Assembly (NCBI GenBank): GCA_019636695.1
Contig: JAHBXD010000005.1
Coordinates: 1-64,000 of the forward strand
From: Phycisphaeraceae bacterium
GTDB taxonomy: Bacteria > Planctomycetota > Phycisphaerae > Phycisphaerales > UBA1924
DNA: 64,000 nt
Direction: 5' to 3'
Shown: positions 1 to 2,529 of the stretch, piece by piece
Position numbering within the stretch: the stretch's first letter is position 1
Layout: each line of letters opens with the position of its first letter
Position numbers and translations under genes: made by a program
Notes under the pieces: generated by a model
What the model was told of the DNA's origin: nothing
Database searches by the model: none
The model's input: the letters and a program-made list of their open reading frames with translations, nothing else

Positions 1-78
1 ACCCTTCGGAGCCGGAAGGAGAACACCCTCTTCGCCGAGGCCGCGTTGAAGGTCGCCGCCTACGCCATCAAGGTGTAG
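1..78 (+). CDS. C-terminal fragment of unidentified protein
   Basis: The frame beginning at base 1 stays open for 25 codons and ends at TAG 76-78, with the tail ENTLFAEAALKVAAYAIKV. Most of the gene lies outside the window. The tail might belong to a transposase, which would fit the neighbouring Rhs fragment, but 25 residues cannot establish a family. Between its stop and the stop of the Rhs tail at 192 are 113 bases in which I see no gene. Confidence 0.4.
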   Translation, partial: TLRSRKENTLFAEAALKVAAYAIKV

Positions 79-191
79 CCCTTCACCCGTCGATCGGGGG
101 CTTCTGGACTGAGCAGGCTTGGGTGTCGCCAGATACAATGAACACAGTACTGATGTAATGGACAATACTACATACGTTATGCTGCCAAATC

Positions 192-1322
192 TCATCGAGG
201 TACCCTTCTGCCATCTTTGCACTGCTCATTAGAGACACCCGGACCTGGTTTCCTTCCTAGCAGGAATGGAAGGCAACTATCCAAGGCGCATCTTGTCTGC
301 TCTTCCGGCGTGGACAATGGATTCACTGATCTGCAAGCGCTGCCGCACACACAGGATGGATCATAGCCAAGTCCTTCATGTGATGGGCCGGGAGGACATC
401 CTCCGTCACCTATGTACGCTTCTATTTCTTGACACATTTTGTTTTCAGGATTGTTCCAGTCATCAATGACTTCGGGGGGTGGATTGCCTCTCGGGGGAAA
501 TCCGTAATCGCAGGCTTGTCTCGCGTGAATGAGTTCGTGTCCAAGCGTTCTATTGTTGCCAGAACATGACGGATTGCCTACAGCATCAGTACATATTACG
601 ATGGAGTTCAAGGACGGATTATACACCCCGCATGTCGTTCCGCCCGCGATATTTGAGGCACATGATATACAATTTATGGTTAATCTATAAGCCCTTGAGG
701 GACATTTGTTGGCCAGCTTGCGCCACGCTTCTTGGGCTGGCGTATTCCATTGGCGACGTCTAATATCCTCATTGCAAGATGGTAAAAATGTTGGAGAATC
801 AAGTGCTCCTGGCACTCGACGTATGGCGTCATCAGACAACGGATCCGGTGCCACGGGCGTGATATCTGGACTGACGGGAGGGTTGGAAAATATAATAGGG
901 CGTGGGCCAAGGGCATTAAGTGAGGAACAGAGTCCCATTGTATCATTGAGCGACATTGGTCTTGCGCGGAATGAGCCATACAACCCCATCCCATCCACGT
1001 ACCCCAGCGGATCTCTCCGCGTCCACCTTCCGGTGTCGGGATCAAGGACGCGATGCCTGACGTGGTACTTGTGCGTGACGGGATCCCATTCGTATCCGGC
1101 CAGCCCCTTGCGGTTGCGCAGGGACGCGGTGCCGAGCGCCAGGCCGGTGTGCCCTTCACTCAGGACGTTGCGGCCCAGGTCGTCGGCATCATTGAGGCGG
1201 TCCAGCCAGAAGAAGAAATCATCGGCGTCGATCACGCCATCGGGCCTGCCGTAGTCGGGGTCACCCGGCGGCTCGCGGGCGGGCCGGGGTGTCGCGGCGG
1301 GTTGGGAGGTGGCCCAGAGCAC
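192..1322 (-). CDS. Orphan Rhs core tail with HExxH (Atp23-like) metallopeptidase tip
   Basis: The predicted protein has 376 residues from a GTG start. Residues 20-45 carry a dockerin-like motif (DGVIDADDFFFWLD). Residues 70-118 are the end of an Rhs repeat-associated core (GLAGYEWDP, RHRVLDPDTGRWTRRDPLGY). After this conserved joint, residues 185-310 form a Cys-rich domain with HELIHARQ (262-269) followed by a CQEIEA segment (297-302), the zinc-site layout of Atp23/M76 peptidases (HExxH, then C-x-EI-A). In polymorphic toxins the variable tip after RDPLGY is the effector, so a zinc peptidase toxin is inferred. The large Rhs shell that should precede it is missing, so this is either a silent tip cassette or a remnant. 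No immunity gene is visible in the 113 bases downstream. The tip DNA looks less GC-rich than the surroundings. Confidence 0.7.
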   Translation of the reverse strand: MLWATSQPAATPRPAREPPGDPDYGRPDGVIDADDFFFWLDRLNDADDLGRNVLSEGHTGLALGTASLRNRKGLAGYEWDPVTHKYHVRHRVLDPDTGRWTRRDPLGYVDGMGLYGSFRARPMSLNDTMGLCSSLNALGPRPIIFSNPPVSPDITPVAPDPLSDDAIRRVPGALDSPTFLPSCNEDIRRRQWNTPAQEAWRKLANKCPSRAYRLTINCISCASNIAGGTTCGVYNPSLNSIVICTDAVGNPSCSGNNRTLGHELIHARQACDYGFPPRGNPPPEVIDDWNNPENKMCQEIEAYIGDGGCPPGPSHEGLGYDPSCVCGSACRSVNPLSTPEEQTRCALDSCLPFLLGRKPGPGVSNEQCKDGRRVPR

Positions 1323-1461
1323 GGGACGAGGATATCAGAGGAAGGGGGAGGGGTGTGCGTGGAAATTCGGGAGAGGATGGCGTGGTGAGGGCACTGACCT
1401 GCTCGCCGAGCGTTGCAGGATCAGTGGCACGGGTTCGGGCCATCGGCCAGTGTCCATGCTC

Positions 1462-1490
1462 TGGTATACTCTGACATACTCGGAAAGGAG
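1462..1490 (+). promoter_or_regulatory. Extended -10 promoter and ribosome binding site of lipoprotein gene
   Basis: TGGTATACT at 1462-1470 matches an extended -10 element (TGn plus a near-consensus hexamer). No good -35 is seen. AAGGAG at 1485-1490 lies five bases before the ATG at 1496, so the expected leader is only about 20 bases. Confidence 0.5.
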
Positions 1491-1495
1491 TTGCT

Positions 1496-2383
1496 ATGCG
1501 TCAAGCCTCAGCCTGTCGATGCATCGCACTGGCATATTTGTCGTCAGTCCTGTTCACTGCGGTCGGTTGCGGGAGTGGGGAAAGCGGTGCTTCGGCCAGT
1601 AAGCCCCGTTCAACAAACGCTCCCGCGGGCAACTCGGCTGGCGCCTTGCCAGGCGTGTACGAGGCGAAGCTGGTCGAGAACGGGATTGAAACGCTCGTGA
1701 CCATGGACTTCAAGCCCGACGGCAAAGTGATTCTTACGTTTGCGGCTCCGAATGCCCGACAGGAGGCCACGCTCACCTACACCGAGGATGGCGACCGGAT
1801 CACTGTCTATCCCGTCAAGGGAGACCATAGCAGCCTGTTCGTTCGCACCGGTGATGTGCTCGAGGGCGATGTGCATTTCACCGGAGTGAAGACGGTCCGC
1901 CTGGCGCGCCAAGGAAGCGCCGCTTCCGGGCAGACGGGAGTCATCAGTGGCGCGACCCTTCCCCGCGCCGCCAAGCCGCCCACAGGCAAGCCCTCCCAGA
2001 ACGAATCCTTTCAGAGCGATCGCAAACTCATGAAGATCGGTCAGGCAGTCCTTGAATATGGGATGAAGAACAGCAACAAGTCGCCTGCGAGCCTGCATGA
2101 GCTGGTGCAGTCGGGGAAGCTCACAGCCGACGACCTGCAATCGCCCTGCGGCCCCGTCGCCGATGGCAAACAGGATTACTGGGTCAGACTCGACGATCAA
2201 ATCTTCGGCATGGATTCGACGCTTATGATGGCCTATGACCGCGCTGCCTACGCGCGCGGCGGGCCCATCTCCGTGCTGTTCTGCGACGCCCACGTCGAGC
2301 GGCTTCCCATGCAGCAGTTCGACGCGATGTTGAAGAACCCGAAGAACAGCGGCACAGACTTCCAGCTTCCGCCCCCGCAATAG
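1496..2383 (+). CDS. Putative lipoprotein with DUF1559-like C-terminal motif
   Basis: The protein has 295 residues. The N-terminus has a hydrophobic signal segment ending in a lipobox-like AVGC (Cys near residue 25), so export and lipidation are inferred. Residues 50-140 look like a small beta-rich domain (GVYEAKL, VTMDFKPDGKV), reminiscent of domains that score a value against a substrate, but I cannot name it. The C-terminus contains PISVLFCDAHVERLP, similar to the end of planctomycete DUF1559 proteins (NVLFADGHV), which normally follows a type IV pilin-like start that is absent here. The start is fixed by a strong AAGGAG. Function unknown. Confidence 0.75.
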   Translation: MRQASACRCIALAYLSSVLFTAVGCGSGESGASASKPRSTNAPAGNSAGALPGVYEAKLVENGIETLVTMDFKPDGKVILTFAAPNARQEATLTYTEDGDRITVYPVKGDHSSLFVRTGDVLEGDVHFTGVKTVRLARQGSAASGQTGVISGATLPRAAKPPTGKPSQNESFQSDRKLMKIGQAVLEYGMKNSNKSPASLHELVQSGKLTADDLQSPCGPVADGKQDYWVRLDDQIFGMDSTLMMAYDRAAYARGGPISVLFCDAHVERLPMQQFDAMLKNPKNSGTDFQLPPPQ

Positions 2384-2529
2384 ACTGTGCGACCGACAAT
2401 CGACGACGACCCTTGCCGATGTTCCATAACGCACGCCCTCGCGATCAAGTAGAGGTTCACATCTCGAACGAGGTCCGCAAGAAACCTGCCGCGTGGCGCG
2501 TCGGGTGCGGGCGGGTGGCCCATCCAACC

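Follow-up and report, generated by a model that had tools for sequence, protein, structure and literature searches.

The window analysed here is the first 64,000 nucleotides of contig JAHBXD010000005.1 (C5) of a Phycisphaeraceae bacterium of the phylum Planctomycetota (assembly GCA_019636695.1; nine contigs, 94% complete), and it starts at base 1 of that contig. Close to this contig end, the minus strand carries a 376-codon open reading frame (ORF) with a GTG start and no internal stop, which encodes the displaced tail of an Rhs protein ending in a Cys-rich tip. It is flanked by the beginning of a partner gene cut by an insertion sequence (IS) element on one side and by an interspersed repeat on the other. 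The features of the locus are as follows.

1..115, plus strand: one end of an IS element that carries a DDE_Tnp_1 transposase and has the terminal repeats TGCT...AGCA; it cuts the partner gene
116..195, minus strand: 5' end (26 codons) of the partner gene, a candidate immunity gene, with a signal- or transmembrane (TM)-like N-terminus and an ATG that overlaps the toxin stop
192..1322, minus strand: orphan Rhs tail ORF, 376 residues, GTG start
195..776, minus strand: Cys-rich tip of predicted M76-type metallopeptidase, residues 183-376 (PF09768, 26.1 bits, E value 8.7e-6; guanine-cytosine (GC) content 50%, GC at third codon positions (GC3) 0.44)
426..428, minus strand: E299, candidate third zinc ligand, invariant in 17/17 aligned tips
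525..539, minus strand: HELIH, zinc-binding motif predicted from sequence (H262-E263-H266)
930..1121, minus strand: end of the Rhs_assc_core domain, residues 68-131 (TIGR03696, 39.4 bits, cut-off 32.5)
1197..1259, minus strand: dockerin-like stretch of the GC type (residues 22-42), with a weak match of 20.3 bits in the window
1275..1450, no strand assigned: interspersed repeat, matched nine times in the genome, five of the matches being long or near full length

From its N-terminus, the ORF is composed of 16 repeat-derived residues, the dockerin-like stretch, the Rhs core end, a linker and a 194-residue tip that contains 16 Cys residues. The core end RDPLGYVDGMGLYG had been recognised in an earlier note made from this DNA by eye, and the TIGR03696 match confirms it. 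The other motifs quoted there are also in place, with HELIH at residues 262-266, CQEIEA starting at C297 (C297-Q-E299-I-E301-A-Y) and DDWNNPEN between the two. Rhs polymorphic toxins are recognised by a variable tip behind the end of the core, and at C4:104701 of the same genome a different tip lies behind a core that is 79% identical at the DNA level. The tip is foreign in composition to its core and to the window, its GC content and GC3 contrasting with the 63.5% and 0.77 of the core and with the 63% GC of the window. The ORF also has the attributes of orphan rhs-CT modules, namely a displaced tail with core homology and a linked partner gene but no shell. A PADLOC search gave no match.

Searched against Pfam, the whole ORF has a single match even at E ≤ 10, to PF09768 (Peptidase_M76), with 23.7 bits and an E value of 4.6e-5, and the isolated tip marginally exceeds the curated cut-off of 25.2 bits for that family. 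This borderline match became secure because of those of the relatives. Their tips score 57.2, 45.6, 41.2, 40.3, 37.8, 33.7, 31.8 and 29.9 bits, the best of them spanning positions 2-163 of the 170-position profile, and 15 of the 17 aligned tips match M76 at E ≤ 0.01. A PF09768 search of 392 genomes of the phylum returned more Rhs-borne tips and few other matches. Six tips aligned at the outset proved too divergent to be used in scans with degenerate patterns. Searches with tip profiles widened the family in 397 genomes of the class and in the order, where 25 of 301 genomes were positive; these genome sets are samples, and some weaker matches of the 301-genome search were counted without reading by hand. 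The tips terminate Rhs ORFs at nearly all loci inspected. The earlier note had proposed a search for full Rhs proteins with the same tip, and such full-length forms were found, with short partner genes downstream. In plasmids, tblastn gave no match to the window tip or to that of genome G743, and viral contigs held no Rhs-linked relative; two viral-contig loci encode an unrelated small zincin. Matches in haloarchaeal genomes belong to a different family of surface zincins, in agreement with a weak match to Hvo_1808, and weak PF09768 matches in genomes G200, G374, G229, G311 and G370 look unrelated. Two genomes (G157:C49 12454-19998 and G261:C40) have an array holding two kinds of M76 tip, all accompanied by partner genes, with a third, different tip behind them. 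In G157, the first kind is found twice, in the full-length Rhs protein and again as an orphan.

The 17 aligned tips have six invariant residues, C218, E263, H266, E299, C324 and C345 in window numbering, to which C183 can be added as an invariant column near the start of the alignment; H262 and C271 are kept in at least 90% of the tips. The window tip has the HExxH motif and the later conserved Glu of Glu-zincins (H262, E263, H266 and E299), and M76 is placed in the Glu-zincin subclan MA(E) (PMC3890501). The third zinc ligand had been proposed to be E299 or E301. E299 is invariant in all the aligned tips and keeps this candidacy, but E301 is not the constant Glu. Similarly, the DW segment taken as a sign of Atp23 is present in the window as DDWNNPEN and also found in G289 and G806 (DDWNDPSNVMCRELQAY), but it is absent from most tips and is no family constant. 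In one relative (G707:C31; loci L087 and L131), DELSH replaces HExxH in an M76-type tip whose frame is intact and whose sequence suggests that it is inactive.

As for the fold, the AlphaFold prediction for the window tip drew on four sequences, the tip itself and three relatives, and is poor. The tip encoded on CALMLO010000049.1 (uncultured Phycisphaerales) yields a confident model (predicted local distance difference test score, pLDDT, 88.8; predicted template modelling score 0.85), with the HELIH motif on helix 67-82 and the invariant Glu on helix 90-104. Foldseek with this model gave no match at E ≤ 0.001. A second structural comparison placed mostly HExxH zincins on top, the best being 2ejq (Z 7.3, root-mean-square deviation 2.0, 73 aligned residues), with Wss1 (Z 5.9), IrrE, M30, Spartan and selecase among the further matches. 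Such middling Z values suggest that the tip of this relative has a zincin-like arrangement and point to no specific family. A search of the PDB by sequence found no relative and no solved M76 chain.

These matches raise the question of whether the tip is a generic small zincin, of the Wss1/SprT-like or Tox-MPTase kind, that resembles M76 only through its HExxH motif and many Cys residues. Wss1, Spartan, IrrE and selecase are indeed among the structural matches at Z 5-6, and Tox-MPTase1-5 are zincin tips of Rhs proteins, of which MPTase1 and 4 occur in planctomycetes (PMC3482391). However, M76 outscores SprT and WLM for each tip scanned singly, with up to 57.2 bits. Moreover, when five tips were shuffled twice each with the HExxH region untouched, none of the ten sequences scored above 12.9 bits, and the M76 match is therefore no by-product of HExxH and Cys composition. 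A generic zincin thus appears unlikely. No Pfam match to Tox-MPTase1-5 was obtained for the window (E ≤ 10) or the relatives (E ≤ 1), the presence of models for all five in the library being unconfirmed, and Tox-MPTase1 may overlap the M76-type tip family. The main claim of the earlier note was that an M76/Atp23-like metallopeptidase forms the tip of an Rhs protein. It is backed by Pfam, by the 17 homologous tips, by the zincin-like fold modelled with confidence for a relative and by the full-length Rhs proteins that share the tip, and we regard the prediction of an M76 (Atp23)-type metallopeptidase as supported.

The earlier note reported no visible immunity gene next to the ORF, which proved wrong. 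In the ATGA sequence at 192-195, the TGA stop of the toxin overlaps the ATG of a candidate immunity gene, with AGAAGGG upstream. The partner frame reads MRFGSITYVVLSITSVLCSLYLATPKP, which is signal- or TM-like, and its last residue is completed by bases of the IS. Positions 116-124 (GGCTTGGGT) represent the expected 9-base-pair (bp) target repeat, and full copies of the same IS occur in the genome at C2 and C3, with the 9-bp target repeats GATTAGTGT and ATCGGAATA. As the window starts inside the IS at a contig end, the remainder of the partner gene is out of sight, and its other half was not found at contig ends or in a pattern search, contig C9 being masked. The starts of C1 and C3 look joined via another collapsed copy of the IS, with its left end at C1 base 1 and a shared 9-mer, ACTGGTTAT, at C3 base 1.

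The loci of the relatives give a fuller picture of the partners. An N-terminal hydrophobic segment is present in 23 of the 27 partners of relatives' tips and in 11 of 77 controls, for which the partners of long ORFs of other kinds were taken from the same material (Fisher p 4e-11, an optimistic value because the tips and partners counted are related). Many of these short genes, which directly follow the tips, also code for a lipobox-like Cys, and their products are predicted to be small membrane-anchored proteins or lipoproteins. Related tips have related partners, with tips that are 47% identical followed by partners that match at E 1.5e-7. In a listing from 2014 based on MEROPS, M76 was present in 21 eukaryotic phyla but absent from all those of Bacteria and Archaea (PMC3890501), making a eukaryotic target or source conceivable. 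The tip might then be an effector that copies Atp23 and is aimed at eukaryotes such as grazers or algae, the neighbouring gene having nothing to do with immunity. Nevertheless, a tightly linked small partner follows nearly every tip, as expected for weapons that hit kin, which makes such an effector very unlikely.

The absence of an Rhs shell, as stated in the earlier note, is borne out. The window ORF has neither a YD-repeat shell nor an export region, both of which are present in relatives, whose Rhs frames comprise 1,671 to 2,304 residues and in several cases have signal-peptide-like N-termini, as expected for proteins exported by Sec. In the host genome, a YD-repeat model that is weak on planctomycete shells gave no match, and a full-length relative used as a query found pieces only and no intact main rhs gene. 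Instead of a shell, the ORF has a borrowed leader. Positions 1275-1322 of the interspersed repeat provide its first 16 codons (VLWATSQPAATPRPAR), and about 130 bp upstream also belong to the repeat. Other copies of this repeat of about 170 bp are found at C4:2662-2759, C6:124485-124655, C7:9765-9919 and C2:197613-197775, some lying away from Rhs genes. The same in-frame leader (VLWA..Q.A..P.PxR) with a GTG start is present at three Rhs tails, those of the window, C4:2662 and C6:124485, and the latter two have a core different from that of the window.

The genome harbours further Rhs remnants and tails. A partial repeat copy adjoins a broken Rhs fragment at C4:106748. An orphan Rhs tail started by the same repeat (C4, about 1417-2499, minus strand; L045) carries a Tlde1 domain (PF10908, 34.4 bits). 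This domain, of the L,D-transpeptidase type, is unrelated to the M76 tip and shares its Rhs-tail setting; Tlde1 is known from envelope-acting effectors. Another Rhs tail (C6, 2-1120, plus strand; L048) has a tip with HELFH then EEIRS and no Pfam match, perhaps a different zincin; the gene behind it codes for a protein with a TM segment at its N-terminus. In a third one (C4, 6275-7687, plus strand; L075), a GC-type dockerin (43.5 bits, over the cut-off) is inserted right before the core end; the window tail retains a piece of this same insert, and a similar insert is found in G630, a genome of the same genus. Since PVC-type metallopeptidases can be releasing peptidases in polymorphic toxins (PMC3482391), the M76 domain might also be imagined as an internal processing enzyme that frees another domain of the Rhs protein and is not itself the toxin. 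Yet the domain comes after the core end and closes the protein, no further domain being present beyond it, and the same place is filled elsewhere by other tips that have partner genes of their own. We give this proposal hardly any credit.

Because the ORF lacks both shell and export signal and an IS interrupts its partner gene, we read it as silent, and we consider it likely that it is an orphan cassette for an extracytoplasmic metallopeptidase toxin of the M76 type whose immunity gene is broken in this genome. Sequence homology, conserved residues, the zincin-like model of a relative, gene order, the IS end and the foreign composition all point that way. The main rival of this interpretation is decay, in which the ORF would derive from the M76 tip of an Rhs toxin but would be functionless and on its way to being lost, rather than kept in reserve. 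The missing shell and export signal, the leader taken from an interspersed repeat, the cut partner gene and the failure to find YD repeats in the host genome are all compatible with decay. On the other hand, the tip frame is fully open and has kept all the conserved residues, and the core, 79% identical to that of another tail of the genome, offers a substrate for recombination. Furthermore, G630 has retained an Rhs frame of 1,703 residues as well as tails arranged in tandem, whose core blocks are 73-88% identical. Decay remains a tenable, if somewhat doubtful, explanation.

Several observations weigh against a silent M76-type toxin cassette. The whole window ORF falls marginally below the M76 cut-off, the AlphaFold model of the window tip is too poor (pLDDT 43) to judge its fold, the zincin-like prediction being that for the relative's tip, and the DELSH tip of G707 is expected to bind no zinc. 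The window partner gene is a 26-codon stub, and kinship among the tips and partners inflates the statistics given above. Finally, other kinds of planctomycete Rhs tip in these genomes also have a membrane-anchored partner. As this anchoring is general, it supports a toxin with extracytoplasmic immunity for the whole class and is no property specific to M76.

If the window ORF is a cassette of this kind, the mechanism that we infer for its family would be the following. An exported Rhs shell would deliver the tip to a neighbouring cell, where it would fold with disulfides outside the cytoplasm. Zinc would be bound through H262, H266 and E299, with E263 as the general base, and the tip would exert its toxicity by cutting an envelope protein. 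The partner, held at the outer surface of the membrane of the producing cell, would block the tip and thereby confer immunity. For the window copy to act, it would first have to recombine with an intact Rhs gene. In Salmonella, recombination joins orphan Rhs toxins to the main rhs gene, after which they are deployed (PMC3967940), and by analogy, recombination might activate the cassette in the host genome.

The system thus appears to be of a known kind, an Rhs polymorphic toxin and orphan cassette, with an apparently undescribed tip family. Like the orphan rhs-CT/rhsI modules of Enterobacteria, the window ORF is a displaced tail with some core and a linked candidate immunity gene but no export signal (PMC3967940); unlike those modules, it sits in a genome where no intact main rhs gene was found, has a repeat-derived leader and is followed by a candidate immunity gene cut by an IS. 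The Tox-MPTase1-5 and Tox-HopH1 toxins similarly have a zincin at the C-terminus of Rhs proteins, planctomycete hosts included (PMC3482391). In contrast to Tox-MPTase1-5, for which no immunity is listed (PMC3482391), the tips described here are Cys-rich and have a membrane-anchored partner. The study that named Tox-MPTase1-5, Tox-HopH1 and Wss1-like zincin tips of Rhs proteins contains neither 'M76' nor 'Atp23' in its text (Zhang et al. 2012; PMC3482391), and among open-licence papers, we found none linking M76 or Atp23 with Rhs or polymorphic toxins. Standard family searches miss these weapons because single tips score at or under the cut-off.

The planctomycete tips share with Atp23 the HExxH motif, a Glu on the following helix and many Cys residues, and in relatives the profile match is significant and covers most of the profile. 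They differ in being bacterial, fused to Rhs, accompanied by a partner gene and richer in Cys. Yeast Atp23 has ten Cys residues and depends on Mia40, whose oxidising pathway operates in the intermembrane space (PMC5349226, PMC4951193). It is tempting to speculate, with considerable doubt, that M76 is no eukaryotic invention and that the planctomycete Rhs tips represent a diverse bacterial reservoir, with a toxin of this kind as the source of mitochondrial Atp23, or Atp23 as the source of the toxins. Atp23 is likewise Cys-rich and works next to a membrane in an oxidising compartment, and if the origin is shared, the tips may also cut an envelope membrane protein. The finding would add to the arsenal of bacterial polymorphic toxins a peptidase family listed as eukaryote-only in 2014, with toxin-partner pairs at hand. 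It bears on the origin of Atp23, which is required for the assembly of the mitochondrial ATP synthase, and it suggests that Planctomycetota possess a class of Rhs weapons that are rich in disulfides and may act on the envelope.
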